Translations under genes and position numbers: made by a program
Source: Oscillospiraceae bacterium
GTDB lineage: Bacteria; Bacillota; Clostridia; Oscillospirales; Oscillospiraceae
Reading direction: 5' to 3'
DNA length: 64,000 bases
NCBI GenBank assembly: GCA_902779945.1
Contig: CACZDN010000017.1
Span: 52,371 to 116,370, forward strand
Shown here: positions 12,231 through 54,797 of the stretch, piece by piece
Layout of the letters: each line of letters opens with the position of its first letter
Numbering within the stretch: position 1 is the first letter of the stretch
Notes under the pieces: model-generated
What the model was told of the DNA's origin: nothing
The model's input: only the letters and a program-made list of their open reading frames with translations
The model's database searches: none

Positions 12231-12242
12231 ATCCGCCCCTCC

Positions 12243-13676: not shown

Positions 13677-13692
13677 ATACGCGCCCCTCCCT

Positions 13693-37114: not shown

Positions 37115-37363
37115 ATGCGAGTAAGTTACAAAAAGCTCTGGAAGCTGCTGATTGATAAAGACATGAAGAAAAAGGATCTTCAGTCAGTCGCAGATATCAG
37201 CTGGACGACAATCACAAAGATGTCAAAGAACGAAAAAGTCAGCATGGATATGCTGATGAAAATATGTGCTGCCTTTAACTGTAATATAGGCGACATCATG
37301 GACATCCTGCCTGACGAGACAGGCACGGAAAATGATCCGGAGGCGCAGCATGGCAATTCTTGA
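37115..37363 (+). CDS. Small XRE-type regulator leading the BREX operon
   Basis: 82 residues: RVSYKKLWKLLIDKDMKK then SWTTITKMSKNEKVSMDM and the end segment IGDIMDILPDE, a YozG-like HTH related to the 31857 gene. Start at 37115 behind GCGAGGTG. Its end overlaps brxA by 14 bp, so it is co-transcribed and translationally coupled with the defence genes. It is therefore the best candidate for local BREX control, in place of the WYL-type BrxR found directly upstream of several characterised systems. Confidence 0.87.
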   Translation: MRVSYKKLWKLLIDKDMKKKDLQSVADISWTTITKMSKNEKVSMDMLMKICAAFNCNIGDIMDILPDETGTENDPEAQHGNS

Positions 37364-37970
37364 CAGCGACAGTCCCTACAAAGGCTCCGGGCAGCTGACA
37401 CGAGAGCAATTTCTTTTCTATGAGATGCGCACAACAGCAAGGCTACTTCAAGAAGGTCTCACGGACCAGGAAGTCGTTGATCAGATCCTTTTGGAGAATC
37501 TTTTCCAGTATCCGACCGAAAAGACCGTAAAACAGACAGCGCGTGCCTGTCTTTCCAGACTTCATGCTTTGGAGGATGCTGGGTTGATTGAAGCAGTGGC
37601 TACACAGGATTCCTATACCGCAAAGCAAATCTGCCTTTATGCAATGATGAAGCAATATCGCATGATCTGGGATTTTATGATCACGGTCATCGGCGCGAAA
37701 TACCAGCAACAGGATTACACCTTCAACCGCCGGGACATCAACGCCTTTTGCCTCCGCCTTCAAGAACAGGACGATCTTGTGGCATCCTGGTCGGGTAATA
37801 CTATCCAGAAAATCGAATCAGTCATCTCTCGTATTCTGATTGAGAACGAGTATATAAATAACGGCAAATCAACCCAGTTGAATCCTGTGCTGATTTGCGG
37901 GACGCTGGAGGCTGCGCTCCGAGTCAATGGTGAAGACGCCGCGCTGCCTGCCTTTAACTGCTTCCCATAA
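37350..37970 (+). CDS. brxA: BREX protein BrxA (DUF1819)
   Basis: 206 residues. Starts MAILDSDSPYKGSGQL and contains RTTARLLQEGLTDQEVVDQI, typical of the BrxA/DUF1819 family, a small DNA-binding protein resembling RNA-binding NusB. It is the first gene of type 1 BREX loci. Start at 37350 behind GGAGG (6 nt); an upstream in-frame ATG at 37332 is less well placed. brxB follows 11 bp later. Confidence 0.93.
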   Translation: MAILDSDSPYKGSGQLTREQFLFYEMRTTARLLQEGLTDQEVVDQILLENLFQYPTEKTVKQTARACLSRLHALEDAGLIEAVATQDSYTAKQICLYAMMKQYRMIWDFMITVIGAKYQQQDYTFNRRDINAFCLRLQEQDDLVASWSGNTIQKIESVISRILIENEYINNGKSTQLNPVLICGTLEAALRVNGEDAALPAFNCFP

Positions 37971-37981
37971 GGAGAATAGTT

Positions 37982-38539
37982 ATGAGCGATATAAAAGAGC
38001 GTTTGGATGCACTAAAGCGGGAAATCCAAAAGCCGGAGTTTTTGGAAGGCAAGGGGCTCAGCAATGAGGTTAATATCCATATTTTTGCCTACGACGCCTC
38101 AGAGGAGATGACCGTCAGACATTTTGTTCAGATGCTGAAAACAGATCAGTCGCTCAACTGCCGTTTGATCGAGCAGAACCTGTACCAAATCTTTCTGAAA
38201 ATCTGCGATGATCTGGACATCACGGAAGCCATTCCGGAAATGGAAGAGGCTGACGGCGGGCAGAACCTCCTCAACGAACTGCACACTACGATCAGCAAGA
38301 CCGAGTTTATAGAAAAAATGCAATACAATCCCCATGTGGAAGGAGATGTGTTGATGCTGACCGGAGTGGGAGACGTTTTTCCTTTCATGCGGGTGCATGT
38401 ACTTCTGGAAGCAATGCAGCCTTATTTCTCAGATATTCCGATATTGATTTTCTATCCGGGGACTTTTGACGGTTATCATTTGAAGCTGTTCAGCAGACTC
38501 CAGCCCAATGATTATTACCGCGCGTTTAAGCTGAAATGA
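37982..38539 (+). CDS. brxB: BREX protein BrxB (DUF1788)
   Basis: 185 residues. Contains MSDIKERLDALKREIQKP, IFAYDASEEMTVRHFV and the C-terminal ILIFYPGTFDGYHLKLF, the DUF1788/BrxB signature. Required for BREX activity in characterised type 1 systems; biochemical role unclear. Start behind AAGGAG; 13 bp before brxC. Normal length, no damage seen. Confidence 0.93.
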   Translation: MSDIKERLDALKREIQKPEFLEGKGLSNEVNIHIFAYDASEEMTVRHFVQMLKTDQSLNCRLIEQNLYQIFLKICDDLDITEAIPEMEEADGGQNLLNELHTTISKTEFIEKMQYNPHVEGDVLMLTGVGDVFPFMRVHVLLEAMQPYFSDIPILIFYPGTFDGYHLKLFSRLQPNDYYRAFKLK

Positions 38540-38552
38540 GGAGGACGCAAGC

Positions 38553-41500
38553 GTGCTGATTAGAGAAATCTTTGCCGAGGATATCAACAGGCCGATCAAT
38601 GGCGTCATCAAGGTGGATCAAAACGCAACGGATGTTGTGGCACAGGAAATACGAGAATATGTTATCACAAAAGAATTAAAACGACATTTCTTCAGTTTCT
38701 TTGACGACTACTGCGAGGCACTGGACAAGCCAACCGCCGACATCGGTGTGTGGATCTCGGGCTTCTTTGGCAGTGGTAAATCTCACTTTCTTAAAATGCT
38801 ATCCTATCTTTTGGAGAACCGGCAGGTTGGGGACACTACTACAGTAGAACTCTTCCGCGGCAAATTTGCCGAAGATTCCGGTACTTTCATGTATATTGAT
38901 CGGGCGACCCGCCGGAAGGCTGAGACCATCCTTTTCAATATTGACATCGAAGGTTCCATCGTCAAGGACAAGACGGCCGTTCTCCGGGTTTTTGCCAAGA
39001 TGTTTTATAACCACCTCGGGTTCTATGGAGAAAACCTGAAAGTCGCCATGCTGGAGCAGTATATTGATCAACTCGGCAAGACGGAGGAATTCCGTCGCGT
39101 ATTTGAGCAGAAGAAGGGAAAGCCCTGGCTTGAGCAGCGCAAAGCCTTTGCCTTCAATGGGAAAGCGATTATTCCGACGTTGATGGAAGTTCTGGACATG
39201 AGCGAGGAGGACGCGAAAAGCTGGTTCCATGACAAGACGGCGGTCGAGTTCTCTATCGCCCGTCTCGTGGAAGACATCAGAGCTTACGTCGAGAAAAAGC
39301 CGTGCGATTTCCGCCTGCTGTTTATGGTAGATGAGGTCGGACAGTACGTCGGGACAGATACGGACATGTTGCTGAATTTGCAGTCTCTCACTGAAAAGAT
39401 CGGAAGCGAATGTGGCGGCAAAGTGTGGATAGTTTGCACCGGGCAGGAAGCCATTGATGAGATCATCAAGGTGCGCGCCGATGAGTTCTCTCGAATTCAG
39501 GCCCGCTTCAAAACGCGTCTCAGCTTGTCCTCTTCGTCTGTGGACGAGGTGATTCAGAAACGTATCCTGAAGAAAAAGCCGGAATATCAGGTGAAGCTGG
39601 AAAACCTGTACAGCACGGGTTCGACGGATGCCGAGCTGCGTAATCTTTTCACCTTTGACGGCGCGCGCCTTGATATGAAGGGCTTCAGCAGCCCAAAGGA
39701 CTTCGCGGACAATTATCCTTTCAGCCCCTATCAATTTACACTGATCCAGAACGTGTTCAGCGAGATCCGCAAGCGCGGCAACGCGGGCAAACACATGTCC
39801 GGCGGCGAGCGTTCCATGCTCTCCGGTTTCCAGGAAGCAGCGCAGAAGATACAAGACAAAGATGAACACGCGCTGGTTCCATTCTTCCGCTTCTATGATA
39901 CGGTCTGCTCCTTCCTGGACAGCTCAATCCGCCGAGTGATTGAGCGCAGCCAGAAAGCCGCCGAGATAGGCGCCGGAATCGAAACAGAGGACGTCGCGCT
40001 GCTGAAGTTGCTTTACCTGATCCGCTATGTGGATGACGTTCCAGCAAATGTGGACAATTTGGTCATTCTGATGGCAGACGATATCCGCACAGATAAGATT
40101 GCATTACGCGAAAAGGTGCGTGCTTCACTTAATCGCCTATTGAGTCAGAACTATATCGGGCGCACGGGTGAGATTTATAACTTCCTCACAGACGAAGAGC
40201 AGGATATTCAGCGCGATATCCGCAATACCAATGTGGACACCGCAAGCATTGTCGAACAGATCGCAAAGATGATCTATGCGGATATCTATACTTCCAAGAA
40301 ATATCAGTACGGCAAATATCCCTTTGATTTCGACAAGATGGTGGACAGCGTGACCATCGGCGCTGTCACCGGCGGCATGAGACTTCGCTTCCTGAGCGTT
40401 GCAACCGATGCCATCGACAAAAGCGAGCTGCGCCTGATGACAGAATCAAAGGGGCAGGCTGTTGTCGCGCTTGCTGATACACCCTATTATGATTCGCTGG
40501 AAAGCGCCATGAAGATCCGTAAATATGTCAAGCAGAAGAATGTGGTACAGCTGCCCAATTCCGTCCAGACCATTATTCGTGACCAGCTTGCCGAGGCCGG
40601 AAAGCTGGAGACCGCTTCCTTGGAAGAGCTGAAAAAGGCGATACAAGACGCGCAGTTCTATGTTGACGGTGAGCGTATAGAGATCAAGGGCGGTGATGCC
40701 AAAGCACGGATCGACCAGGCGCTGAATTATCTTGTCACTCATGTTTACAGCGAGCTCGGACGTATTTCAAAGAATATAGAGACGGACGCGGAGATCACGG
40801 AAATCCTCTCCGGCGCAAATGCCCCCATGCCCGGCTTTGAACCGAACCGAGACGCTGCCGCGGCAGTCGAAGAATACTTGATCATGCAGGACCGCAAAAA
40901 GCTGCCGACTTCCATGGCCGATGTCCAGAGCCGCTATCAGAGCGCGCCCTACGGCTGGCGCGAGATCGACATTGCAGCGGTCGTGGCGCTGCTCATTTTC
41001 CAGCAGCGCGTGACCATCAAATACGGCGGTGCGACTGTCCAGCCAGATAACCCGCGTCTGCCGGACATGCTGCGCAAAAGGAATGAGATCGGCAGAACCG
41101 TTGTCTCCATCCGTCAGGTTGTGAATGTGGCAAAGATGAAAAAAGCCCGGGAGCTTCTGCGAGAATACTTCGACGTGATGGATGTCCCCAGCGATGAGGA
41201 CGGGCTTGTGGCTTTTATCTCCGAAAAATTTGAGACGCAGAAATCGCATTACGATGCTTTGGACGAGCGCTATAACAACGGCCGCCATTACCCTGACCGC
41301 GCGAAAGTGCAGCAGGCGATCAAGCTGACCGAGGATGTGCTTTCCCAGCGAAAGGATAATATAGCCCTGATCGATCGCCTGATCCGGCTCGAGGACGATC
41401 TTCTTGACAGTAAGGAAGACCTCCAGAACGTAGAAAGTTTCTTTAAGAACCAGGTGCAGCTTTTTGACGCTGCAGCGCAGTTGGAAGAAGATCTGCGGAA

Positions 41501-42089
41501 CGAGCTGGACTATCTCAGCCGCGAGCCGGAGTCCAACGAAGCCTTGAACAAAATTCGCCTGATTACCTTCGTACCGGGAGGTTTCAGTTACAAGAAAGTG
41601 CCTGAGCTGAGCGGGCTGATCGCGATCGTGCGGCAGGGGCATGACCGACTTTTGGAAGAAAAACGCGGCGAGGTACAGGATATCGCTGCACAGTGCATGA
41701 GTATGATCCACCAGGCAAGCGGCGAAAGTATCCATACAAAAGATGTCGTGGCACGTGCGGATGAATACTACCGGCAGAAGCGGGAAGCAATCCGTGAGCA
41801 TAAGAGTCTCGCTCTTCTAGACGGGCTTGTGCCGCCAATGCTGCAATACAAGGATCAGTGCTGCACCCGTATCGAAGCCCTGCTTGAACCTCCAAAGCCA
41901 CAGCCAGAACCGGAAAAGAAGCCTGAGGCTCCAAAACCTGTAAAGAAAATTATCAAGACATATAACAGGCAGATTCTGTTTCCGTCCAGTACGCTGAGTT
42001 CAGACGAAGAGATAGATGCTTATGTCGATAAGATTCGGGATAATATGAAACAGCTGCTAAAAAACTGTGATGGAATACAATTGAAGTGA
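38553..42089 (+). CDS. brxC: BREX P-loop ATPase BrxC
   Basis: 1178 residues, full length. Walker A GFFGSGKS (70-77) and a Walker B-like LLFMVDEVGQ (about 255-264) form an AAA-type ATPase domain, followed by a long helical region (about 900-1060) and a C-terminal Pro/Lys linker (about 1112-1135). The GTG start at 38553 follows GAGGAGG at 8 nt. BrxC is one of the six core type 1 BREX proteins and is needed for phage defence and host methylation. Higher GC than the HNH gene that follows. Confidence 0.95.
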   Translation: MLIREIFAEDINRPINGVIKVDQNATDVVAQEIREYVITKELKRHFFSFFDDYCEALDKPTADIGVWISGFFGSGKSHFLKMLSYLLENRQVGDTTTVELFRGKFAEDSGTFMYIDRATRRKAETILFNIDIEGSIVKDKTAVLRVFAKMFYNHLGFYGENLKVAMLEQYIDQLGKTEEFRRVFEQKKGKPWLEQRKAFAFNGKAIIPTLMEVLDMSEEDAKSWFHDKTAVEFSIARLVEDIRAYVEKKPCDFRLLFMVDEVGQYVGTDTDMLLNLQSLTEKIGSECGGKVWIVCTGQEAIDEIIKVRADEFSRIQARFKTRLSLSSSSVDEVIQKRILKKKPEYQVKLENLYSTGSTDAELRNLFTFDGARLDMKGFSSPKDFADNYPFSPYQFTLIQNVFSEIRKRGNAGKHMSGGERSMLSGFQEAAQKIQDKDEHALVPFFRFYDTVCSFLDSSIRRVIERSQKAAEIGAGIETEDVALLKLLYLIRYVDDVPANVDNLVILMADDIRTDKIALREKVRASLNRLLSQNYIGRTGEIYNFLTDEEQDIQRDIRNTNVDTASIVEQIAKMIYADIYTSKKYQYGKYPFDFDKMVDSVTIGAVTGGMRLRFLSVATDAIDKSELRLMTESKGQAVVALADTPYYDSLESAMKIRKYVKQKNVVQLPNSVQTIIRDQLAEAGKLETASLEELKKAIQDAQFYVDGERIEIKGGDAKARIDQALNYLVTHVYSELGRISKNIETDAEITEILSGANAPMPGFEPNRDAAAAVEEYLIMQDRKKLPTSMADVQSRYQSAPYGWREIDIAAVVALLIFQQRVTIKYGGATVQPDNPRLPDMLRKRNEIGRTVVSIRQVVNVAKMKKARELLREYFDVMDVPSDEDGLVAFISEKFETQKSHYDALDERYNNGRHYPDRAKVQQAIKLTEDVLSQRKDNIALIDRLIRLEDDLLDSKEDLQNVESFFKNQVQLFDAAAQLEEDLRNELDYLSREPESNEALNKIRLITFVPGGFSYKKVPELSGLIAIVRQGHDRLLEEKRGEVQDIAAQCMSMIHQASGESIHTKDVVARADEYYRQKREAIREHKSLALLDGLVPPMLQYKDQCCTRIEALLEPPKPQPEPEKKPEAPKPVKKIIKTYNRQILFPSSTLSSDEEIDAYVDKIRDNMKQLLKNCDGIQLK

Positions 42090-42125
42090 TGAACAACGTC
42101 CATAATTTGAGAGGGTGTTTGTACT

Positions 42126-43220
42126 ATGATCGATAAATCAAAAGTTGAGCATGTTTATAGACAGCTTTTATATGTGACATATTCCAGATATCCAGATGTT
42201 GAGCCAAGCTTCACAACCGGGCTGTGGAAAGATGAGGAGTTCTACAAATATGACGTTTGGAAGCGGGCAAGGGCGGCATTGAAGTTAGAAACGTGGAAAA
42301 CGCATAAGGATGACCCGCGATATATTTTTGATCGTGCAGTCGACGCCATTGACGCTTGTGAAAACCTTCTGGCAACAGATCATTCCCAGGAGGCACAGCA
42401 AGCCTATATTTCCACGTACAATAAAGTTGTTGTGGCGCTTCTCGAAAACTTGGAAAGAACGGCAGAAGCATTATTTGGAATTTTCTCTACAGAGAGTCTT
42501 GGAAAAGATGGAATATATTTTGACTTACTTGCCGATATATTGAAAAAGATATATGACGGCTATTCTTATGTGGCTTACTTCTTCTTTCTCAAAAACATGA
42601 ACGAGTATGCGCCCGTGAGACGAAAAGCGGATACAAACCGGTTAAATCAAATTGGTGTGAGTCCGTCTTGTATGAACCCATGTAATTGGAAAAACTACAT
42701 GATCTATATGGATGTTATCAAGGAACTACATGGCTTTCTTGCCGAACAGGGCTTAGAGGTAAGTCTCCTTGACGCGCAGTCTTTCCTTTGGATGTTATGG
42801 ATGGTAACCAGTGAAACACCGGAATTCAAGAATTGCGATGATCCATATGAGACAATAATTGAGAAACCCACTTTCGGATATAAGGAAGGAAAGAGAATTG
42901 AAGTATATGGCACCAAATATGAACGTAATTCAAAAGTACGGCGAGAGTTTTTGAAAACTCAAATAAAACCATATAGGTGCGAAGCCTGCGGAATGGATTT
43001 TGAGAGTGTTTACGGAAGTCTGGGCAGGGATGTAATCGAAGTCCATCATAAGATGCCCCTTTCAGTAAATGGTGAGGAACAGGTAGTTTATCCAAATCAA
43101 GATTATTTTGCATGCTTGTGTGCGAACTGTCACAGAATCATACATAAAAAACAAGGCGCAATCATGACGGTGGAAGAACTGAAGGCATGGATTGACAATG
43201 AACAAGGCAAGGTAAAATAA
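42126..43220 (+). CDS. HNH endonuclease inserted in the BREX operon
   Basis: 364 residues. The first 260 residues are a helical domain of unknown kind. The C-terminal 100 residues form a McrA-like HNH nuclease with zinc cysteines CEACG and CANCH, the EVHHKM active-site segment (about 304-309) and the final HRIIHKK. It is not a core BREX gene. The DNA is more AT-rich than brxC and pglX, suggesting separate acquisition. It overlaps the pglX start by one base, so it is co-expressed. A restriction role, perhaps on modified or foreign DNA, is inferred from context. Confidence 0.87.
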   Translation: MIDKSKVEHVYRQLLYVTYSRYPDVEPSFTTGLWKDEEFYKYDVWKRARAALKLETWKTHKDDPRYIFDRAVDAIDACENLLATDHSQEAQQAYISTYNKVVVALLENLERTAEALFGIFSTESLGKDGIYFDLLADILKKIYDGYSYVAYFFFLKNMNEYAPVRRKADTNRLNQIGVSPSCMNPCNWKNYMIYMDVIKELHGFLAEQGLEVSLLDAQSFLWMLWMVTSETPEFKNCDDPYETIIEKPTFGYKEGKRIEVYGTKYERNSKVRREFLKTQIKPYRCEACGMDFESVYGSLGRDVIEVHHKMPLSVNGEEQVVYPNQDYFACLCANCHRIIHKKQGAIMTVEELKAWIDNEQGKVK

Positions 43221-45784
43221 TGGATAAGAACGCGATAAAGAAATATGCGGTTTGGGCGCGGCGAGAGCTGATCGCCCGCGTGAGCCAGCGCGCGGCGCTC
43301 TTTGGCGTTACGAGCGAAGGGTATGGCGAGGCCGACCCCGCCAGCGTCGGCGATCTTGTGCTCTCCGCGGCGGAACGCGGCCAGCGGCGCGCGCTGGTGG
43401 CGCAGCTGCGTGAAAAGAGCTATGAGCAGGTGATGGAGGAAGCTGCCTATACCTGGTTCAACCGCTTCATTGCCCTGCGCTTTATGGAGGTCAACGGCTA
43501 TCTGCCCACGCATGTCCGCGTTTTTTCCAATGAGGAAGGAGCGTTCAAGCCCCAGATTCTGACCGAGGCGATCAATTTGGAGCTGGACGGTCTTGACATG
43601 GACCGGGTTTATGCCCTGAAAACCGCAAACCGGGATGAGGAGCTGTATAAATACCTGCTGATTACGCAGTGCAACGCGCTCTCCGCCATTCTGCCCGGTA
43701 TGTTCCAGCGCATTGCAGATTATACCGAGCTGCTTTTCCCCGAGAACCTTCTGCGCGAGGGCAGCGTTCTGGAGCAGATGGTCAGCGCGATCCCGGAGGA
43801 GGACTGGACCGATCAGGTGCAGATCATCGGCTGGCTGTATCAGTACTACAATACCGAGCCCAAAGACAAGGTCTTTGCCGATCTGAAAAAGAATATCAAG
43901 ATCAGCAAAGAGAAAATCCCCGCCGCTACCCAGCTTTTTACCCCGGACTGGATCGTGCGGTATATGGTGGAAAACTCGCTGGGCCGTCTCTGGGTAGAGG
44001 GTCACCCCAACGAGGAATTGAAAGCCACATGGCGCTATTATCTGGAGGAAGCCGAGCAGGAGCCGGAGGTACAAGCGCAGCTTGCTGAAATCCGCAAGGG
44101 CTATGCCGCGCTGAACCCGACCGATCTCCGTGTTATCGACCCCTGCTGCGGCAGCGGGCATATCCTCTGCTATCTCTTCGATGTACTCATGCAGATTTAC
44201 GAGAGCCAGGGCTACAGCGCGCGGGATGCCGTGCAGAACATTCTGCTGCATAATCTCTGGGGCCTGGATATCGACGAGCGCGCCGCGCAGCTATCCTATT
44301 TTACCGTGATGATGAAAGCACGGCAGTATGACAGCCGCTTTTTCCGCCGCGGGGTGCAGCCGCACGTCCTTGCCGTCGCGGAGAGCAACCACGTCAGCAA
44401 GGAGGCCGTGGCTTATTTCTGCAAGGATGACGCCGTTCTTACCATGTCCATGCAGACCATTCTGAACGAGCTGTATGACGCAAAGGAATACGGGTCGATC
44501 CTCACTTGCTCGACGCAGAATTGGGATGCACTCTATGCGCGCTTTGACGAGGTTTATGACGACATTTCCATGCACCGCGCCGACGCGCTCGACCTGCTGC
44601 CGCTCGTCCAGACCGCCGAGGCTCTGTCACAGAAGTATGACGTGGTCGTAACGAACCCGCCGTATATGGGAAACAGCGGCATGAGCGGGAAGCTGAGCGA
44701 CTATGTGAAGAAAAACTATCCTGATAGCAAGAGCGATTTGTTTGCAGTATTTATTGAGCGCTGTGGGCAGATGACGAAGAAAGACGGCTATCAGGCTATG
44801 ATTACGCAGCATGCGTGGATGTTCCTCAGCAGCTTTGAAAAACTGCGTATAAAGTTGCAGAAGGTTGATACTGTAAACATGGCACATCTTGGAGCAAGAG
44901 CCTTTGAAGAAATTGGCGGCGAGGTAGTACAAACTACTACCTTTGTAATGAGATGTAGCCATATACATGGATATGCTGGAACGTTTTGTCGCTTGGTTGT
45001 GCCGACAACACAACAAAGCAAAGAGAACATGTTCCTTGCAGGCGAAAGCCGATATACAGCGCAGCAGGATAACTTCTCAAAAATCCCCGGCTCTCCGGTG
45101 GCATATTGGGTAAGTAAAGCTGTATTTTATGTTTTTGAAAACTATAAAAACATAGCTTTTTACGGGGAAGCGAAAGCGGGCATGACGACTGGGGATAATA
45201 ATCGTTTCCTTAGATTGTGGAGTGAAGTATGCCATCCAAAAATCGGATATGGCATGAGAACGAGCGAGGAAGCCCGGCTGTCGAGGAAAAAATGGTTCCC
45301 GTATAATAAAGGTGGAGGGTTTAGAAAATGGTATGGCTTAAATGACTATGTTGTTCTATGGGAAAACGACGGGTATGAAATAAAAAATGCTACGGAGAAA
45401 GGTCGAAAAATTGCGAGCGTAAGAAGTGAAAGACTGTATTTTAAGGAAGCCATCACTTGGGCGACATTAACTACAGGGATGATTTCATGTCGGCATTCTG
45501 AATGTGGACATTTATTCGACGATAAAGGATCAAGCTGTTTTTTACCCACGAAATATCATTACTATGTTTTGAGCTTAATAAACTCGACTGTCGGGAACTA
45601 TTTGCTTTCTATATTAAATCCAACTGTATCTTTTCAATCCGGGAATATCGGAGCACTCCCCATGATCGTTGATGGCAGAATTGAGGCGATAAACTCTCTG
45701 GCGTTAGCCAATATAGGAGCTTGTAAAGCAGATTGGGATTCTTTTGAAACCTCTTGGGATTTCAAGCGGCATCCGCTGGTGTGA
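43220..45784 (+). CDS. pglX: BREX methyltransferase PglX, N-terminal part (split gene)
   Basis: 854 residues, against about 1,190 for intact type 1 PglX. Starts MDKNAIKKYAVWARRELI as usual. The SAM-binding motif DPCCGSGH lies at about 307-314 and the catalytic NPPY at about 478-481, so the adenine methyltransferase core is whole. Residues about 545-854 are the target-recognition region and are noticeably AT-rich in codon use, unlike the GC-rich first half. The protein ends at SFETSWDFKRHPLV, where intact homologues run on into the region now encoded at 46741-47760. Confidence 0.92.
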   Translation: MDKNAIKKYAVWARRELIARVSQRAALFGVTSEGYGEADPASVGDLVLSAAERGQRRALVAQLREKSYEQVMEEAAYTWFNRFIALRFMEVNGYLPTHVRVFSNEEGAFKPQILTEAINLELDGLDMDRVYALKTANRDEELYKYLLITQCNALSAILPGMFQRIADYTELLFPENLLREGSVLEQMVSAIPEEDWTDQVQIIGWLYQYYNTEPKDKVFADLKKNIKISKEKIPAATQLFTPDWIVRYMVENSLGRLWVEGHPNEELKATWRYYLEEAEQEPEVQAQLAEIRKGYAALNPTDLRVIDPCCGSGHILCYLFDVLMQIYESQGYSARDAVQNILLHNLWGLDIDERAAQLSYFTVMMKARQYDSRFFRRGVQPHVLAVAESNHVSKEAVAYFCKDDAVLTMSMQTILNELYDAKEYGSILTCSTQNWDALYARFDEVYDDISMHRADALDLLPLVQTAEALSQKYDVVVTNPPYMGNSGMSGKLSDYVKKNYPDSKSDLFAVFIERCGQMTKKDGYQAMITQHAWMFLSSFEKLRIKLQKVDTVNMAHLGARAFEEIGGEVVQTTTFVMRCSHIHGYAGTFCRLVVPTTQQSKENMFLAGESRYTAQQDNFSKIPGSPVAYWVSKAVFYVFENYKNIAFYGEAKAGMTTGDNNRFLRLWSEVCHPKIGYGMRTSEEARLSRKKWFPYNKGGGFRKWYGLNDYVVLWENDGYEIKNATEKGRKIASVRSERLYFKEAITWATLTTGMISCRHSECGHLFDDKGSSCFLPTKYHYYVLSLINSTVGNYLLSILNPTVSFQSGNIGALPMIVDGRIEAINSLALANIGACKADWDSFETSWDFKRHPLV

Positions 45785-45793
45785 GGTATTATC

Positions 45794-46612
45794 ATGTTTG
45801 AAGATAGAGAATATTTTTCCTTCATTGAAAAAAGTGATCTATATGGGGCACAGAAATATGCAATTGAGCATACCCCCGATTATCTTTACAAATTTTACTC
45901 TCTTTCAGATGGAAAGTCTTGTAAATCGAAGCGGCTTGACAAGAAAAAGCTGCTGACATTGGAAAGAAACCAATCATGGTTTGATCTATCAAAAAATCAG
46001 AACGATCCATTAGATATGAGAATGGCCTACGTTGATGAAAGAGAGGATGTAGATTGTTCTCAAATCGATTTAGCAAGAGAGTTACTATCAAAATCTCGAG
46101 ATTGTTTCCTGCTTTCAAGCTTTGGCGAAACAGATGAATACGATTTACCTATGTGGCAATTTTATGCTAACGCTCATCAAGGATACTGCATTAGATACAA
46201 AATAACAAAAAAGCATGTATTCTGGAAAGTAATGTATAATAGAGATAGATTGCCCGTCTTATCAATTCCGCTCAACTTGATTCAAGAGATGAAAGAATCA
46301 GATAAAGCAGGAAAGGAAACTTTCGGATTACAAATATACAGACACTATCTCTTGATGCTAATGTGTGCAAAACATACTTCTTGGAAACAAGAAAAAGAGT
46401 ATCGCGTTTTGTTCCCGGCAGAGTCTGATCACGGAATGAACATAGACAACGAACTGATTGGCGTTGTGCCTGATGCCCTGTTTATTGGGATGAATTGCTG
46501 CGAAAAGTATAAAAAGAAGCTCAAAGATATTTGCACGAACTCTTTACACTGTGATTGTTATCAGGCGTTTATCAGTGAAACAAAGATTCTTGACTTTGGC
46601 CTTGTCAAGTGA
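45794..46612 (+). CDS. DUF2971 protein inserted between the two pglX parts
   Basis: 272 residues. LYKFYSL near the start, DPLDMRMAY, a CFLLSSFGE segment, MWQFYANAHQGYCIRY and KQEKEYRVLF match the DUF2971 family pattern (FNDPxD, CFS, MWxHYA, E-x-E-x-R). The molecular function of the family is not established; members are often seen near defence genes. AT-rich like the end of pglX(N). It starts 9 bp after the pglX(N) stop, so it is translated from the BREX mRNA. It stands where intact pglX genes have a short inter-domain linker. Confidence 0.85.
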   Translation: MFEDREYFSFIEKSDLYGAQKYAIEHTPDYLYKFYSLSDGKSCKSKRLDKKKLLTLERNQSWFDLSKNQNDPLDMRMAYVDEREDVDCSQIDLARELLSKSRDCFLLSSFGETDEYDLPMWQFYANAHQGYCIRYKITKKHVFWKVMYNRDRLPVLSIPLNLIQEMKESDKAGKETFGLQIYRHYLLMLMCAKHTSWKQEKEYRVLFPAESDHGMNIDNELIGVVPDALFIGMNCCEKYKKKLKDICTNSLHCDCYQAFISETKILDFGLVK

Positions 46613-46656
46613 AGCCTCTTTTGCGTTATTTTCGTTATCCTGAATAACATAATAAC

Positions 46657-46718
46657 CGTCCCCAAGTTGGGGACGATTTGAAATACCTGTATTTTTGAAA
46701 ACCTGCCCTAACTTGGGG
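46657..46718. repeat. Palindrome and half-repeat between DUF2971 gene and pglX(C)
   Basis: CGTCCCCAA-G-TTGGGGACG (46657-46675) is a perfect 9-bp-arm palindrome. A related CCCTAACTTGGGG follows at 46706-46718, just before the pglX(C) ribosome-binding site. It may be a weak terminator or internal control element, or a recombination scar of the cassette insertion. Confidence 0.55.
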
Positions 46719-46740
46719 TAGAAAAAGGAAAGAGGAAATC

Positions 46741-47760
46741 ATGGGAAGCCTGATATCTGATAAATACAAGGAATGGGAAGCGGAGTGCGAAGCCCGCTTC
46801 CGGCAGCTCAAGGCCAACGAGGAAGAACTGAACCGCATCTTCATTGAAATCTATGGCCTGCAGGATGAGCTGACGCCGGAGGTCGAGGATAAAGATGTGA
46901 CCGTCCGCAAGGCGGATCTACAGCGGGAGATCAAAAGCCTGATCTCCTACGCCGTGGGCTGCATGTTCGGGCGCTACTGTCTGGTAAAGGACGGCCTGAT
47001 CTTCGCCGGCGGTGACTTTGACGCCGTATACTGGAAATACAAAGGACAAGCCCCGCTCGATGCGCAGGGAAATCTCCTGCCCGGCGGAGGTTACGCGGGG
47101 GTCAGCCTTGCAAAGTATCACTATCCAAAGCTCCGGGATGCCGAAAACCCGGAAGACGCGACGATGCTTTCCTTCTGCCCCGATCCCGACAACATCATTC
47201 CCATCTGCGACGACGAGTATTTTGAGGATGATATTGTCAGCAAATTCGTGCGCTTTGTGGAAGTGGTCTATGGCAGGGACACGCTGGAGGAAAACCTGAA
47301 ATTTGTCGCCGACGCGCTGGGCGGCAAGGGCTCCCCGCGCGAGGTTATCCGCAGCTATTTCCTCAACGACTTCTACGCCGACCATTTGAAGGTCTACCAG
47401 AAGCGCCCGATCTACTGGCTCTTTGACAGCGGCAAGAAAAACGGCTTTAAATGCCTGATCTATATGCACCGTTATCAGCCTGACACTATCGCCCGCATCC
47501 GCACGGACTACGTCCATGAGCAGCAGTCCCGCTACCGCACCGCTATTGAGGGCCTGAATCAGCGAATGGCCGACGCCTCCACCTCCGAGCGGGTCAAGCT
47601 CTCCAAGCAGCTCAAAAAGCTCCAGGATCAGGACGATGAGCTCCGCACCTATGAAGAAAAGATCCACCATCTGGCCGATCAGATGATCAAGATCGATCTG
47701 GATGACGGCGTGAAAGCAAACTACGCCAGGTTCGAGGACGTACTGGCGAAGATTAAGTGA
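46741..47760 (+). CDS. pglX: BREX PglX, C-terminal part (split gene)
   Basis: 339 residues. The block [20 protein letters not shown], then the [17 protein letters not shown] segment and [10 protein letters not shown], is characteristic of the C-terminal third of type 1 PglX. Together with the upstream 854 residues it gives 1,193, the normal full length. It has its own ribosome-binding site (AAGGAAAGAGGAAATC before ATG) and GC-rich codons like pglX(N) residues 1-540. No methyltransferase motifs. Probably assembles with PglX(N) in trans, since both parts are uninterrupted. Confidence 0.9.
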
Positions 47761-47774
47761 GGAGGGTGGAGAAC

Positions 47775-49292
47775 TTGGCAAATTTATCTTTTAATTATTC
47801 TGGAGAATGGGCAGATGTTTGTCATGTTCTCCGCTGCTTCTCCACAGACACAATATTAAAGCGAATTAGCACGGCGGCAATTGCGTTGCAGAAAGAATCC
47901 CATGGCGTAAAATGGGTTGAATATGACCTTTTTGATACGGTCAGACGAACTTCAAAGAAAAAGAAATCAGTCATCACATTATGGGGCCTGATCGACCTGG
48001 CGTATTATACTGTTGTGGTATCGAATGATTATCGCGGGAAAAGAACAATTACAGGCGAAGAATTCTATATGCTTTTCGATGCAGTTGAAAGCATGAAGCA
48101 GAAAAAAGAAAAAGAGTTTCTTGATGCAGAGACGGTTGGAAGTAGAGAACTTCTGATGTACCTATGGGGATTTTCGGGCGAACAGTTCAAAGTACAAGAG
48201 CAAAACATTATCTTTGAGAGTGCTGGAAGAGAGCTGTATATCCTTTTTGAATCATCTAAAAAAGTGCCAGACGCGTCAATAGATATCTCCTCAATTGTCC
48301 AAAACGAGATCGGCATGACTTGGGAAAAGGTTCTGTGTGGTCTTATGCTAGGATGGGTTTTCTCGACTATGAATTGCTGTGTAACAAAAACGACGTGCCC
48401 ATTCAATGATCCAGAATTGATCAGTAGAGAAGAATATTTGAAAGTGATCTCACACTATTCCATTACTTATGAGATGCTTCGGAAGTCCAAGCTAAAAAGA
48501 CAAGCTCTTTACACAAAACCGTATATTATTACGCAAAAGAATGAAACTCTTGGTATGATACCCTTTTTGAATCTTTGCCTATATGAGCATGCCATCTTAT
48601 GGATTGTAAGAGATTATTTCAATTATAAAAAAGAGCAGGATCAGTGGTTTACGTCATACTTTGGAAAGTGTTTTGAAAAATATTTTGAAGAATTGCTGAA
48701 CTGTTCTCTCAGAGAGGATGAATACGAAAAGATTCCAGAGGCAACGAATCGCCGCGCAGATTGGAAAATGAAGATAGATGGGTATAGATTCCTCGTCGAG
48801 CAGAAATCAACTCTCATCCGATTGAATGCCAAGCAGCAAGCACCGAGTATCGGCGATATAGAATATTTTGCAAAGCAAACACTCATTAAAGCAATAGGTC
48901 AGTTGGATACCACTGAAAAAGAATTCGCAGAGGGGCAATTCATAAAAATTATTTTGCTGTATGACGACTATCTTAATCCTGAAATACTGGAGCAGGTCTT
49001 TACGATGAAAGAATGTGACACTGAATCGGATAATCATTTTTGGCTTGTAACCATTGAGGAAATAGAGATTCTTTTGAGCCTTTGCCCAAAAAACCGTGAC
49101 TCATTTGATTCAATCATTGAAGAAAAAAACAGGCGGGAAATTGCCCACTCAAAAGACGGAAAGACTCTCTTCCAAATTATGAGAAAGCAGGGCGTTTTGG
49201 AAAATAACTTTCTGAAACGAGAGGGGATCGCGTATTATCGTGATTTAGCATTAGAAAAAATAAGACATTTTATGAGTAAGACCGGATCGTAA
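47775..49292 (+). CDS. Unknown protein with PD-(D/E)xK-like nuclease motif, inside the BREX operon
   Basis: 505 residues, no recognised family. The C-terminal third has FGKCFEKYFEELL, then D329 (RADWKMKIDGYRF) and E342-Q-K344 (LVEQKS), the spacing of a PD-(D/E)xK nuclease core. The N-terminal 300 residues are helical, with one hydrophobic stretch (VLCGLMLGWVFSTM). TTG at 47775 was chosen because GGAGGG lies 8 nt before it; GTG 47757 overlaps pglX(C). AT-rich compared with pglX(C) and pglZ. Position in the operon suggests a BREX accessory effector. The nuclease assignment is an inference from motif spacing. Confidence 0.75.
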   Translation: MANLSFNYSGEWADVCHVLRCFSTDTILKRISTAAIALQKESHGVKWVEYDLFDTVRRTSKKKKSVITLWGLIDLAYYTVVVSNDYRGKRTITGEEFYMLFDAVESMKQKKEKEFLDAETVGSRELLMYLWGFSGEQFKVQEQNIIFESAGRELYILFESSKKVPDASIDISSIVQNEIGMTWEKVLCGLMLGWVFSTMNCCVTKTTCPFNDPELISREEYLKVISHYSITYEMLRKSKLKRQALYTKPYIITQKNETLGMIPFLNLCLYEHAILWIVRDYFNYKKEQDQWFTSYFGKCFEKYFEELLNCSLREDEYEKIPEATNRRADWKMKIDGYRFLVEQKSTLIRLNAKQQAPSIGDIEYFAKQTLIKAIGQLDTTEKEFAEGQFIKIILLYDDYLNPEILEQVFTMKECDTESDNHFWLVTIEEIEILLSLCPKNRDSFDSIIEEKNRREIAHSKDGKTLFQIMRKQGVLENNFLKREGIAYYRDLALEKIRHFMSKTGS

Positions 49293-49395
49293 TACGCATC
49301 CCCAGGCTGATACCCGTTCTGAAGATGACAGCATGGACTTTTTTTGGAAACGTGAATACAAAAAGATCCAATCAACATAAATAGGAGACACCGTT

Positions 49396-51999
49396 ATGGA
49401 TGCCGAGAATATCATACAGGAATTGAACAGGCGGTTTGCAGAACCACTAAAGGAGTTCTATAAACGTCGGATCATCTTCTGGCATGACGAGGAACGGGAG
49501 TTTGCCGATCAGTTGGAACTGATCCGGCTGGATAACGTGAAGCTGGTGGAGCTTACCGGGAGCAACACCTTTGCTGTCAAAAAGCTCCTCTGCGCGGACG
49601 ACCCGAACAGCAATTATCTGATCTATGACCCCCGGAGCTTTTCACGCGATGATGACAACTGGCTCGTCAATGTGGAGCTCTACAGCGAGGAATTCCGGGC
49701 GGACCGAAACTCCATTTGGATCCGAGAAATGGGTCTTTCCAATACGCCGGAAATCCGACGACAAGTCAAAGTCTACCGAAAATTCTTTATGGAAGAGCCC
49801 AATCGCTCCGCCGTTTCACGCAACAGCAAAAGCATCGCTACTGCGCCGCAGATGCATCTTGCAGTGATGGCTGCACTGTGCAATCTTCAGAATATGGAGC
49901 CGGCAGGCATCCTTCGTGCCGTTCTGTGTGCGGGACTTGAAAAGGAAAGCAACCGCGTTTATCAACGCCTTGTCCAGTATGGTGCGGATACTGCTTTCTG
50001 GGCCCTTGCCGCACGATTTACCGGTTACAGCCCGGTCGATGAGCCGGAGCTGAAGGCGCTTGCCATTCACACGCTGCTCACGGCCGCCTCCAGAACTATG
50101 ACTCCCGAATGCCTGGCTGGCCTGGACGCTTATTATTCCGCTCCTCATCAATCCTATTGTTATGACCTTGTTTCGGACTGGATGCGCAGTTCAGACAATG
50201 CAGCGCTTTACATTATTGCAAGAGATGTAGAGCACGCTGTTAGACTTTGGCAGCGCTTCTCCAAGCTCCCCTCGGAGGAGCTGGAGGATACTGAATGCTT
50301 CCCCTGTATTGATGAGTGTATTTTGAGCGCGCTGATGACGGAGATATGCGAACACGAACTTATCCAGCCTGAAAAAATCAGAAACACCGTTGAAAAACGG
50401 CGCTCAACTGCCTGGTATGAAAAGGCAGAGCCCTATTATGAGGGACTGCTCCAGCTCGGAAACATGCAGGGCTTTTATCTGGAACACGCTGACGGTTTCC
50501 ATGTTGTGGAGCCTGAAAAGCTCTGGCACTGCTACACAACGGATTATTATCGGATGGACAGCTATTACCGGCAGTTCCATCTCAGCTTTCAGCGTAGCAT
50601 AGAGGCATCCAATCCACTTCTGGATGATCTGTTCAAACATATTGCAGAGAAAGCGGAGGGCCTGTATTCTCATTGGTTTCTTAATCAACTCGGTGCAAAC
50701 TGGTCAGACGCCTGCGCACAGGAGCTGGCGGATTACGGTTGCATCCGGGGATTGCCTCAACAGACAGATTTTTACCGAAATCGGATCAGAAACAGCAATA
50801 ACCGCGCCTATGTGATTATCTCCGACGCACTGCGCTATGAGGTGGCAGCGTCCCTTGTGGACAGGCTTCGCCTTGAGACACAGTGCAAGGTGGAATTGGA
50901 CAGTTGCGAGGGCATCTTCCCAACCATCACCAAGTTCGGTATGGCGGCGCTCCTACCGCACCGGGAACTCAGCGTGAAGGAAACAAGCGCCGGGGATTTG
51001 GCGATACTGGCAGATGGGCAAAGCACGGAAGCACCCGCACGGGACAGGTGCCTGAAAGCGGCGAACAAGGCCAGCGTTGCCCTTAAATATGAAGATCTGG
51101 TACAGATGAAGCGGGCAGAGCGTCAGGCTCTGGTCAAGGGAATGGATGTCGTTTACATCTATCACAATATGATTGACGAGGCAAGTCATATTTCCGATAT
51201 GATGGTATTTCCCGCATGTGAGAACGCGATCCGCCAGATCATGACGATGATTCGCAGCATTGTCAGCGATTTTGGCGGCACTACGATTTATATCACAGCC
51301 GACCACGGTTTCCTGTATACATACGAACCGTTGAAGGAATCAGCCAAGGTGGATAAAGACGCTACCGGCGACTTGACAGTAGAATACGATCGCAGATATA
51401 TGATCACATGTTCTGGCGTGGAGCCTATGCATCTTCTCCCTGTAATGTTTATGGATGGGAAAACAGACTACCATGCTTTCACGCCACGGGAGAATACTCG
51501 CATCAAGAAAAGCGGCAGCGGGCTTAACTTCGTGCATGGCGGCATCAGTCTTCAGGAAATAGTCGTGCCGATTGTGGAGTATCAGTTTCTGCGCAATGCC
51601 AATAAAACCTACCAGCGTCATAAAGACAGCTTTGATACCAAGCCCGTTACACTTAGCCTTATTTCCGCCAGCCGGAAAATCAGCAATATGATTTTCTCTC
51701 TGAACCTGTTCCAGCGGGAGCCGGTCGGCGGCATCCGGGAAACGGCAAGCTATCTTCTGTATTTTACCGATTCCAACGGCAAGCAGATCAGTGATACTTG
51801 TAAGATCATCGCGGATAAAACAAGCAGCAATGAGCAGGAGAGGATTTTCCGTGCGGGATTCAACTTGAAATCCCTGAAATACAGCGGCCTGGACACATAC
51901 TATCTCGTCATCGCAGATGAATCCGGGCTTCAAGCTCCTCAGCGTATTGAGTTTCAGATTGATATTGCCTTTGCAGTGGATGAGTTCGACTTCTTTTAA
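49396..51999 (+). CDS. pglZ: BREX phosphatase-superfamily protein PglZ (type 1)
   Basis: 867 residues, full length. N terminus (IIQELNRRFAEPLKEFY, RRIIFWHDEEREFADQL) is typical of type 1 PglZ. The alkaline-phosphatase-fold metal motifs are visible: VIISDALRYEVA (about 473-484), YHNMIDEASHI (about 592-602) and TADHGFLYT (about 635-643). The family is nuclease- or phosphodiesterase-like and essential for BREX. The 100-bp gap from the upstream gene holds a separate ribosome-binding site (ATAGGAGA) but no clear promoter. Confidence 0.95.
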   Translation: MDAENIIQELNRRFAEPLKEFYKRRIIFWHDEEREFADQLELIRLDNVKLVELTGSNTFAVKKLLCADDPNSNYLIYDPRSFSRDDDNWLVNVELYSEEFRADRNSIWIREMGLSNTPEIRRQVKVYRKFFMEEPNRSAVSRNSKSIATAPQMHLAVMAALCNLQNMEPAGILRAVLCAGLEKESNRVYQRLVQYGADTAFWALAARFTGYSPVDEPELKALAIHTLLTAASRTMTPECLAGLDAYYSAPHQSYCYDLVSDWMRSSDNAALYIIARDVEHAVRLWQRFSKLPSEELEDTECFPCIDECILSALMTEICEHELIQPEKIRNTVEKRRSTAWYEKAEPYYEGLLQLGNMQGFYLEHADGFHVVEPEKLWHCYTTDYYRMDSYYRQFHLSFQRSIEASNPLLDDLFKHIAEKAEGLYSHWFLNQLGANWSDACAQELADYGCIRGLPQQTDFYRNRIRNSNNRAYVIISDALRYEVAASLVDRLRLETQCKVELDSCEGIFPTITKFGMAALLPHRELSVKETSAGDLAILADGQSTEAPARDRCLKAANKASVALKYEDLVQMKRAERQALVKGMDVVYIYHNMIDEASHISDMMVFPACENAIRQIMTMIRSIVSDFGGTTIYITADHGFLYTYEPLKESAKVDKDATGDLTVEYDRRYMITCSGVEPMHLLPVMFMDGKTDYHAFTPRENTRIKKSGSGLNFVHGGISLQEIVVPIVEYQFLRNANKTYQRHKDSFDTKPVTLSLISASRKISNMIFSLNLFQREPVGGIRETASYLLYFTDSNGKQISDTCKIIADKTSSNEQERIFRAGFNLKSLKYSGLDTYYLVIADESGLQAPQRIEFQIDIAFAVDEFDFF

Positions 52000-52013
52000 G
52001 GAGGGCGCACACC

Positions 52014-54797
52014 TTGAACAGCTTCATGAATAATCTTGCCATTGCCACAATACTGACGCTTGACGGCTATTTGCGCGATCTGAACCGGCAAATGCGGGAG
52101 GTTGAGTCTGAAAAGCGTGTGTCGATTCATCGGGGCGTTATTTTGCATGACGGAAAAAGAAAGATGATCGACATTGCAAATCAGATCATCCGAAATGCAG
52201 ACAAGGCATGTAATACTGAATCCGATTTTGATATAGAGGCAAGTATTGATCTCCTGCTTTGCGGATGCTTATATCATATGATAGATACTTTGCCTGTTTC
52301 GGAATCGGCCAAGGTGTCGTTCTATGATGAGGCTTCCCGAAGTCTTCAACTGAATCGGGAATACAGCGGTGACATGGTTTTTCATCAGGGAGTCGGGGAA
52401 GAACTGCTCGAGGGAGCCGTCAAGCAGTTGCTGAGAACGTATATTGCAGGAGACAGTCACAGCAAAGAGAGCCGCCTTTTTCTCGAGATGGTTCGACTTG
52501 GCAGTGACCTGCTCTTATGTCTGAGCGCAAAAATGAATGAGAGCCATCCCAATGACGGCTTCTCAAACGAAGCATCCCTGTACTTGGCTGAACAAGCGCT
52601 TGCTGCTTGTGAAGATGTAATGCAGGAGATGGAAGAACACGACCTCATGCTGAAATCCGATGTAAATAATACGAGACAGGAAACCGAAAGAGCTGGTGAT
52701 AATATGAATATCGTCACTGAGGAAATGAGCTTGCAGGAACAGGAAAAGATAAAGCTGCGCCAGTATTTTGACGGCAGGATCGTGCGGAAAGACCTTACTA
52801 AAAAGATCAAAGAGGGTGCGAATGTACCGGTCTATGTGTTGGAGTTTCTTCTTGGGCAGTATTGCAGCTCGGACGATGAAGAGGTTATTGCGCAGGGTGT
52901 AAACAGTGTAAAAAAGATCCTTGCGGATAATTTCGTGCGACCGGATGAGGCGGAGAAAGTACTGTCGCGGCTTCGGCAGCGCGGTTCTTATACTGTCATT
53001 GATAAGATAACAATGTCCCTGAATCTGCGTTTTGACGAGTATGAAGCTGAGTTTTCCAATCTGGGAGTCAAGGGCATTCCGATTGATGAGTTTTACGCGG
53101 AAAAATATGATCGACTCCTCTGCGGGGGCATTTGGTGTATTGTCCAATTGGAATACAATACCGAATCTGCTGACAGCGGCATTATTCTCATGGATAAAAA
53201 GGCAAAAAAGCCTCAGACGCTCATTTCCATCAGAAAGCTCACACCGATCCAAATGCCACATGTGGATATCGAAGAGCTGAAACGCGGCAGAAAAGCTTTC
53301 ACAAAAGAAGAGTGGATAGATGTTATGTTGCGTTCAATCGGCATGGAACCTGACAGGCTGACAGAACGCGAGAAATGGCTGCTGCTATGTCGTATGTTGC
53401 CTTTGGTGGAGAACAATTTCAATCTCTGCGAACTTGGACCCAGAAGCACAGGAAAATCTCACCTGTTCAAGGAGATTTCGCCAAACAGCATCTTGGTTTC
53501 CGGCGGTCAGACAACCGTTGCGAATCTGTTTTACAATATGGCCCGGAAAACAGTTGGCCTTGTAGGCCTTTGGGACTGTGTGGCGTTCGATGAAGTCGCT
53601 GGAATCAACTTCAAGGATAAAGATGGCATTCAAATCATGAAGGACTATATGGCTTCTGGCTCATTTGCTCGGGGTAAGGAAGAGAAAGCTGCTTCCGCCT
53701 CCATGGTTTTCGTCGGAAATATCAATCAGAGCGTGGATGTTCTGCTGAAAACTTCCAGCCTTTTTGACCCGTTCCCACCTGAAATGGGAACAGACACCGC
53801 GTTTCTGGATCGTATGCATTGCTATCTTCCTGGCTGGGAGATTCCGAAGTTCCGTCCGGAACACTTTACAGATGGTTACGGTTTCATCACCGACTACCTC
53901 GCAGAATTTCTGCGTGAGCTGCGTAAGGAGCAGCATGGTGATGCTCTGGATCAGTATTTTAAGCTGGGGAAAAACCTCAATCAGAGAGATACTATCGCAG
54001 TCAGAAAAATGGTTGGCGGTATGGTTAAACTTCTTTACCCGGATAGTGTATATACAAAAGAGCAACTCGAGGAGATTTTGAAACTGGCCCTTGAAATGCG
54101 CCGCCGTGTAAAAGAGCAGTTGAAAAAACTAGGCGGTATGGAGTTCTATGATGTAAACTTCTCATATATAGATCAGGATACCTTTGAAGAACACTTTGTG
54201 TCGGTTCCTGAGCAGGGCGGAGGAAAGCTGATCCCGGAGGGTATGGGAAATTCTGGTCAGGTTTATACAATCGGCCAGGGGAAAAGTGGCATGATTGGTG
54301 TCTTTCGTCTGGAAGCACAGATGCTGCCGGGGAATGGGAGGTTTGACCGTACCGGTATCGGCTCGGACAGGGAGGCGCGGGAAGCAACCAATACGGCTTT
54401 CCACTATTTGAAAGCAAACGGAAATCGAATCAGCGCTTCCATCAGTACCACATCGAAGGACTATATTATCAATTATCAAGATCTGCAAGGGATCGGAATG
54501 ACCTCCAGACTGGCGTTGCCAACCTTGATATCCCTGTGCTCGATTGCTCTTGGCAAACCTTTGCTGAGTTCCATGGCGGTCCTCGGCGAAATCAGTATCA
54601 GCGGAACCATGATTAAGGCAGAGGAACTTGCCAACACCTTGCAGGTCTGCCTAGACAGCGGGGCAAAGAAAGTCCTTCTCCCGATCACCTCCGCGGCAGA
54701 TCTCGGCACTGTTCCACCGGAGCTTATCGGTTGCTTTAACTTGATCTTCTACAATAGCGCTGAAGACGCAATTTTTAAGGCTCTGGGTGTCGAGTGA
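52014..54797 (+). CDS. brxL: BREX ATPase/Lon-like protein BrxL with N-terminal extension
   Basis: 927 residues; usual BrxL is about 680. From about residue 240 (LRQYFDGRIVRKDLTKKI) it is a standard BrxL: Walker A GPRSTGKS (about 475-482), Walker B-like VAFDEVAG (about 522), and the C-terminal Lon-like domain with ANTLQVCLDSGAKKVLLP. The Ser-Lys dyad of Lon is not obvious. Residues 1-230 are an extra helical domain (DGYLRDLNRQMREVE ... LLLCGCLYHMIDTL) I do not recognise. The TTG start is 8 nt after AAGGAGGG; an internal ATG at 52704 (residue 231) could give the short form. Confidence 0.93.
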   Translation: MNSFMNNLAIATILTLDGYLRDLNRQMREVESEKRVSIHRGVILHDGKRKMIDIANQIIRNADKACNTESDFDIEASIDLLLCGCLYHMIDTLPVSESAKVSFYDEASRSLQLNREYSGDMVFHQGVGEELLEGAVKQLLRTYIAGDSHSKESRLFLEMVRLGSDLLLCLSAKMNESHPNDGFSNEASLYLAEQALAACEDVMQEMEEHDLMLKSDVNNTRQETERAGDNMNIVTEEMSLQEQEKIKLRQYFDGRIVRKDLTKKIKEGANVPVYVLEFLLGQYCSSDDEEVIAQGVNSVKKILADNFVRPDEAEKVLSRLRQRGSYTVIDKITMSLNLRFDEYEAEFSNLGVKGIPIDEFYAEKYDRLLCGGIWCIVQLEYNTESADSGIILMDKKAKKPQTLISIRKLTPIQMPHVDIEELKRGRKAFTKEEWIDVMLRSIGMEPDRLTEREKWLLLCRMLPLVENNFNLCELGPRSTGKSHLFKEISPNSILVSGGQTTVANLFYNMARKTVGLVGLWDCVAFDEVAGINFKDKDGIQIMKDYMASGSFARGKEEKAASASMVFVGNINQSVDVLLKTSSLFDPFPPEMGTDTAFLDRMHCYLPGWEIPKFRPEHFTDGYGFITDYLAEFLRELRKEQHGDALDQYFKLGKNLNQRDTIAVRKMVGGMVKLLYPDSVYTKEQLEEILKLALEMRRRVKEQLKKLGGMEFYDVNFSYIDQDTFEEHFVSVPEQGGGKLIPEGMGNSGQVYTIGQGKSGMIGVFRLEAQMLPGNGRFDRTGIGSDREAREATNTAFHYLKANGNRISASISTTSKDYIINYQDLQGIGMTSRLALPTLISLCSIALGKPLLSSMAVLGEISISGTMIKAEELANTLQVCLDSGAKKVLLPITSAADLGTVPPELIGCFNLIFYNSAEDAIFKALGVE

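Follow-up and report, generated by a model that had tools for sequence, protein, structure and literature searches.

A pglX gene in two parts with a cargo gene between them in the type 1 BREX operon of an Oscillospiraceae bacterium

A complete type 1 BREX operon carries pglX as two genes

We examined 64,000 nucleotides from an Oscillospiraceae bacterium (assembly GCA_902779945.1, contig CACZDN010000017.1, positions 52,371 to 116,370 of the forward strand), below called the window, which hold a type 1 BREX (bacteriophage exclusion) operon whose methyltransferase gene, pglX, is divided into two open reading frames, pglX-N and pglX-C, with a DUF2971 gene between them. By Pfam and PADLOC the system is complete, with brxA, brxB, brxC, pglX, pglZ and brxL all on one strand (37332-54797). 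In order, the operon contains (aa, amino acids):

37332..37970, + strand: brxA (Pfam BrxA, 187 bits)
37982..38539, + strand: brxB (Pfam BrxB, 122 bits)
38553..42089, + strand: brxC (PADLOC BrxC over its full length, 1231 bits)
42126..43220, + strand: accessory gene of 364 aa with an HNH-like C-terminal part (weak PADLOC matches to type IV restriction endonuclease and HNH)
43220..45784, + strand: pglX-N, with N-terminal helical domain, methyltransferase (NPPY, DPCCGSGH) and target-recognition domain (TRD)
45794..46612, + strand: cargo gene of 272 aa, DUF2971 (PADLOC candidate PDC-S31), G+C 0.365
46613..46740, no strand: spacer with two predicted hairpins (palindromes 46660-46672 and 46706-46718), folding z -3.78
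46741..47760, + strand: pglX-C, a separate chain with spacer helix and a winged-helix and coiled-coil part
47757..49292, + strand: accessory gene of 511 aa with a weak GapS1-like stretch (NCBIfam GapS1, 20.5 bits against a cut-off of 320)
49396..51999, + strand: pglZ (Pfam PglZ, 167 bits)
52014..54797, + strand: brxL (Pfam, PADLOC; BrxL homology from about residue 244 of the frame)

Both halves of pglX are separate open frames without internal stops, pglX-N of 854 residues ending in SFETSWDFKRHPLV and pglX-C of 339 residues. These features and the coordinates of the three central genes agree with a preliminary description of this DNA, and the gap that it placed between the halves exists, its exact length being 956 bp rather than 957 bp. 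Against the NCBIfam model BREX_1_MTaseX (1210 positions) pglX-N aligned to positions 1-899 and pglX-C to 906-1209, and against the PADLOC PglX model (1174 positions) to 1-869 and 878-1170. Since the alignments nearly abut in both models, hardly any sequence is lost at the junction; the earlier view that the parts sum to a full PglX is borne out, and the loss of residues that had been named as a sign against it was not seen. In the numbering of Salmonella PglX, pglX-N ends at residue 885 and the predicted model of pglX-C begins at 890, a loss of about 4 residues at most. Where NCBIfam describes a single chain of about 1,200 residues there are two here, of which pglX-N passes with 1055 bits and pglX-C scores 401 against a cut-off of 500. 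The domain set of type 1 PglX is nevertheless all present: N-terminal domain, methyltransferase with S-adenosylmethionine motif and NPPY, TRD, and C-terminal domain (CTD) with its metal site, whose ligands are conserved (D148, D150, D163 and Y257 of pglX-C align with D997, D999, D1012 and Y1113 in an alignment read by eye). The predicted structure of pglX-C reached a mean local confidence (pLDDT) of 89.4 with a long helix from residue 5, the C half thus folding alone in prediction.

Translation signals, read by eye, were Shine-Dalgarno-like stretches at TGAGG, which overlaps the pglX-N stop and would serve DUF2971, and at AAGAGG before the start of pglX-C, in keeping with the separate ribosome-binding site proposed for the latter. 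Directly 5' of the pglX-C ribosome site, the spacer at 46613-46740 holds a palindrome of the CCCCAAGTTGGGG type, with a near copy of it 46 bp further; these are the only matches in the window at up to 2 mismatches, and the two predicted hairpins might set the amount of PglX-C. Each pglX half has a single place in the host genome, and no intact second pglX was found in its assembly (85.8% complete, 39 contigs).

The split recurs at the same residue

A scan of genome contigs with the C half returned 182 relatives, the best 80 of which were analyzed. In 67, N and C lay in one frame across the junction, although some of these frames are cut or broken elsewhere (for example, L094 is broken at another site and L096 is truncated by the end of its contig, the two being scored as junction-intact; L035 was left out); 11 were split and 2 had no N half in view. 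The same cut in 11 of the best 80 loci is not expected by chance. Similarly, 16 of 400 genomes sampled from the family had a C match, which by hand count comprised 8 with a split or separate C, 6 with an intact junction (five judged by frame length alone) and 2 undecided. The order sample, which overlaps the former, gave 13 matches in 394 genomes (5 split, 5 intact and 3 weak distant matches). Among 35 matches in 391 genomes of the class, frames shorter than 400 aa around a good C match were confined to the window genome and G166, which the counts above already include; two incomplete matches in short frames, in G1128 and at the second place of G1110, stand outside this count. Splits were therefore common in the family and order of the window, and none was seen in the remaining class sample.

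The arrangement is also found in a complete circular record of Collinsella aerofaciens (NZ_OY725717.1, labelled plasmid 6), where the three genes are annotated pglX, hypothetical and hypothetical; it is therefore not an assembly artefact of metagenome bins. Here, in the single annotated case encountered, only the N half bears the name PglX, its C partner being labelled hypothetical. With pglX-C of the window also under the NCBIfam cut-off, split systems are easily mistaken for broken ones.

In total, both halves were available for 19 systems (window, L007, L015, L024, L028, L029, L047, L054, L070, L079, L084, L085, L086, L088, L091, L092, L093, L097 and L109); L089 and L084, which share the same cargo, were taken as one genome, L100 is the genome of L029, and L018 and L090 have C and cargo in view but not N. 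In 18 of these 19 systems the N half stops directly behind the position that aligns with residue 854, the exception being L015, which extends 14 residues more, and ribosome-site-like stretches precede most C starts (read by eye).

A gene disrupted by insertion and now dead or decaying would be the plainest explanation of such a locus. The genus of the window offers some material for it: four of 102 members have a C match, and next to the split in the window and two intact genes there is one C remnant with a stop codon (G003, L098). The preliminary description had asked whether relatives keep an intact pglX while this one is inactive; the first half was found, in two of these four, yet the split genes of the window are without sign of decay. 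Given the shared stop residue, the loss of so few residues and the selection described next, we regard decay as very improbable.

Five pairs taken from six split loci gave ratios of nonsynonymous to synonymous substitution rates (dN/dS) of 0.044-0.207 for the C half and 0.041-0.192 for the methyltransferase part of the N half; the pairs are not independent, and one N pair has a dS of 2.4, near saturation. By these ratios, both halves are under purifying selection in the pairs tested.

The C chains of split genes begin in their own way. We compared 22 C chains that are split off or stand alone (those of the 19 systems plus L018, L090 and L087, with L089 read for L084). At one position of the new N-terminus, in the start region of the spacer helix, all 22 had Lys (21) or Gln (1), as against none of 64 anchored intact genes, where the position is mostly Ala, with Arg in three (7 further genes had no anchor). 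The stricter motif LIx[DE][KQ][YF] was present in 19/22 split and 0/69 intact genes. The C bodies of split genes do not form one clade: the label split or intact changes 10 times on the C tree, where starred branches force no fewer than 5 of the changes, and 12 times on the N tree, where no fewer than 10 are forced, while the split label is clustered on the C tree (0/500 shuffles gave a value as low). The repeated changes on both trees indicate that the split arose or moved more than once.

Arrangements with two N halves

The genome L029/L100 has a longer version of the operon, in the order brxC, a 112-aa gene, a first N half, a lone TRD piece, a HEPN-like gene (below the Pfam cut-off), a second N half, DUF2971, RhuM, one C half and pglZ. 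At L100:2337-15634, a single PglX-C thus shares its operon with two complete PglX-N genes, which differ in their TRDs, and with an isolated TRD piece. The same number of halves is suggested for G1223 by three contigs whose ends are nearly identical. One C half beside two N halves speaks for PglX-C as a real subunit. A related observation was made in L087, where an intact pglX is followed about 6 kb on by a lone PglX-C, the interval (9110-14751) being occupied by a 746-aa PDC-S46 gene and by DUF3990, nucleotidyltransferase-like and HEPN genes.

Phase variation by inversion occurs at some pglX loci, and the split might be one state of such a switch, with halves rejoined or swapped by inversion. 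The two N halves, TRD piece and single C of the L100 genome would suit it. In the window, however, positions 42000-49400 hold no long inverted repeats (best arms 17 nt, 88%), no recombinase was found in the subset of window proteins scanned, and cargo sits between the halves; a switch of this type is hardly credible here.

The gap is a slot for exchangeable genes

Genes lie between the halves in 17 of the 19 systems (19 of 21 counting L018 and L090), the two without cargo being L047 and L054, which are split all the same. The cargo starts at most 25 nt from the N stop in 13/17 and overlaps the C start in 8/17, the starts of L088, L091 and L097 being chosen by hand. Its content is varied. Five cargo genes belong to the DUF2971 superfamily, those of the window, L029 and L088 over the Pfam cut-off and those of L090 and L091 assigned only by a custom profile and weak PADLOC matches. 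Four are HEPN-like (L070 and L085 over the Pfam cut-off, L079 and L109 below), with H, RN and AH invariant in 5/5 aligned sequences. DUF559 is found in 2 systems, AAA_21 ('AbiEii') with DUF4276 in 1 and DUF4760 in 1. RES-like genes in L093 and L097 are both below the Pfam gathering score (16.6 and 22.8 against 23.2 bits), and L097 also carries a Schlafen AlbA_2 gene. L084 and L086 carry hydrophobic, putative membrane proteins without family (read by eye), and no family over the cut-off was found for the cargo of L028 and L018. At the start of L018 (1-600), the beginning of PglX-C is present as a short broken copy, followed by an 83-aa cargo frame and then by the real PglX-C; the copy looks like the scar of a cargo insertion.

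That a DUF2971 gene fills the gap in the window holds (31.9 bits against a Pfam gathering score of 22), and it is a member of the candidate defence family PDC-S31, differing by its place inside a split pglX. Its W121, Y124, K193, E202 and R204 are among the invariant columns of 12 sequences. The preliminary description had suggested looking for the same split and insertion in other genomes; the split does recur there, with cargo mostly other than DUF2971. By gene presence alone, DUF2971 occurs in 16/120 family genomes (control, 2/14 named genomes). In G166, another genome with a split pglX, both DUF2971 places lie outside the slot. This argues against a special bond of the slot with DUF2971 and, together with the other genes or empty gaps elsewhere, leaves the proposal of DUF2971 as a specific partner or guard of PglX unsupported. 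Viral contigs held no relatives of the window DUF2971 protein or of that of L111, and two of that of L029; the DUF2971 alignment A1 offered no usable conserved stretch for searching them. Distant relatives were found on one Lactococcus plasmid (23% identity), with no BREX gene annotated around it, and in one unannotated phage record (29%). An ADP-ribosyltransferase-like fold, expected for DUF2971 from the look of the sequence alone, was dropped as nothing supported it.

Comparison of 8 loci in 28 pairs showed how the slot changes. L088/L091 are 82% alike in the methyltransferase part and 97% in C, as against 32% in the TRD and 24% over 89 residues of cargo. Similarly, L086/L093 (methyltransferase part 93%, TRD 45%, C 79%) have cargo without a match, and cargo is unrelated in L089/L097 (84%, 49% and 92%) and L091/L093 (82%, 32% and 94%). 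On the other hand, L092/L089 share a TRD 77% alike with no match in cargo, while L093/L097 share cargo 60% alike with a TRD of 41%. Thus, both TRD and cargo are subject to turnover, neither being tied to the other, and the sequences flanking them are better conserved. In the window, the G+C content of the TRD (0.418) and cargo (0.365) is below that of the methyltransferase part (0.559) and C half (0.554); the same holds in 10/10 other loci checked, in some only slightly.

Such turnover would also be expected if the variable TRD region simply recombined often and foreign genes landed beside it, with functions not tied to PglX. Lower G+C in TRD and cargo, cargo changing beside C halves 79-97% alike and the frequency of DUF2971 outside the slot all fit this account. 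It explains less well why cargo frames are open and so tightly packed with the halves, and why the same cargo families recur in distant hosts, and we regard it as doubtful.

Alternatively, the cargo product might be held by the two-chain PglX and be freed or switched on, leading to abortive infection, when an inhibitor such as Ocr prises the TRD and C-terminal parts apart. Several kinds of cargo are effector-like (HEPN-like with invariant RN..AH, AAA_21 'AbiEii' with DUF4276, DUF559). According to the portion of PMC11842806 used here, Ocr touches TRD and CTD alike, and these parts are on separate chains in the split systems. L027 carries a 262-aa segment (6597-7382) in frame at the same junction inside a one-chain PglX (1444-aa frame), but this insert matched no known family and no DUF2971. 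Cargo follows no particular TRD, as in the L092/L089 and L093/L097 pairs, and two splits have none; we regard a guard of this kind, too, as doubtful.

A probable two-chain PglX

We consider it probable that PglX here is a two-chain enzyme and that the gap is a cargo slot of the operon for exchangeable auxiliary effector-type genes, in this case DUF2971. The earlier suggestion of a working two-part PglX gains from the comparisons, which bring out a precise split recurring at one residue, next to no lost residues, residue conservation, selection on both halves in other split systems, predicted folding of the C half, two N halves beside one C, and a cargo that varies and is exchanged. PglX-N and PglX-C would be translated separately and then most likely reunite at the packing site of the spacer helices known from one-chain PglX. 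The helix that closes N and the one that opens C are members of that spacer pair, which makes this the simplest model. By analogy with published one-chain structures, N would provide catalysis and target reading while C would complete the DNA clamp, and the assembled enzyme would have the activity of type 1 PglX, which methylates adenine in a 6-bp motif. The cargo, made from the same operon and tightly packed with the halves, would most likely be a backup effector, given its kinds, with its operon place tying its dose to PglX; acting with PglX, or guarding it, is possible.

Several points weigh against this interpretation. The selection values come from other split systems, and the window pair has no near split relative. 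The fragmented assembly leaves some room for an intact second pglX. We know of no activity of DUF2971, and its predicted structure from two sequences failed (pLDDT 36.9) and was unused. Finally, an isolated C-terminal domain of PglX could not be expressed, as described in the part of PMC11341690 consulted, although the boundary of that construct apparently lay at the hinge, ahead of the TRD.

A bolder version, which we think unlikely, has a constant PglX-C serving interchangeable PglX-N chains of different targets, with guard effectors in the slot freed when a phage inhibitor separates the chains. If true, this BREX enzyme would be a modular multi-specificity methyltransferase and a tripwire at once.

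Known type 1 PglX/BrxX structures (Salmonella 8c45 and 8q56, E. coli 9ewz) consist of one chain, in contrast to the two genes, the gene between them and the distinct C-chain start seen here. In type I restriction enzymes, half-length HsdS subunits divide a TRD and spacer protein into pieces that reassemble through spacer helices. The split PglX would resemble these in its reassembling pieces, as the outcome of an unrelated event, and HsdS has no cargo between halves. Effector genes inside BREX operons have been described: the consulted parts of a BREX survey report backup effectors including HEPN, Schlafen and HNH (PMC12839542), and those of a study of Salmonella LT2 an ATPase and DUF4435 pair between pglX and pglZ (PMC9009780). 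The covered parts of the survey do not mention the pglX coding sequence as a site for effector genes, and its text, figures and supplements aside, never uses 'split', 'fission', 'DUF2971', 'DUF559' or 'RhuM'. Among open-licence PMC papers, surveyed mostly by listing, none was seen to report a pglX whose two parts are separated by other genes. What appears new is therefore the split pglX with a cargo slot between its halves.

By these comparative signs, a BREX specificity enzyme can work as two subunits, and split systems provide natural pairs for biochemistry on the C-terminal part of PglX. They also mark, in many gut bacteria, a place inside pglX where defence-type genes gather, one that could be mined for new effectors, several cargo genes matching no family.

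Neighbouring genes

The 364-aa HNH-like gene (42126-43220) is wedged between brxC and pglX-N, whose start it overlaps; it matched no Pfam or NCBIfam family and is A+T-rich (G+C 0.406 against 0.513 for brxC and 0.559 for the first part of pglX-N). The 511-aa gene (47757-49292), which overlaps the pglX-C stop, is likewise A+T-rich (G+C 0.389) and without a Pfam family, and a D...ExK-like stretch read by eye gives it a possibly nuclease-like appearance. As BrxL homology begins near residue 244, the true start of brxL may lie downstream of the annotated frame start. At 57841-59256, 3' of brxL, we observed a defence-type gene combining Schlafen AlbA_2, HATPase_c_4 and a Fic-like C-terminal part.
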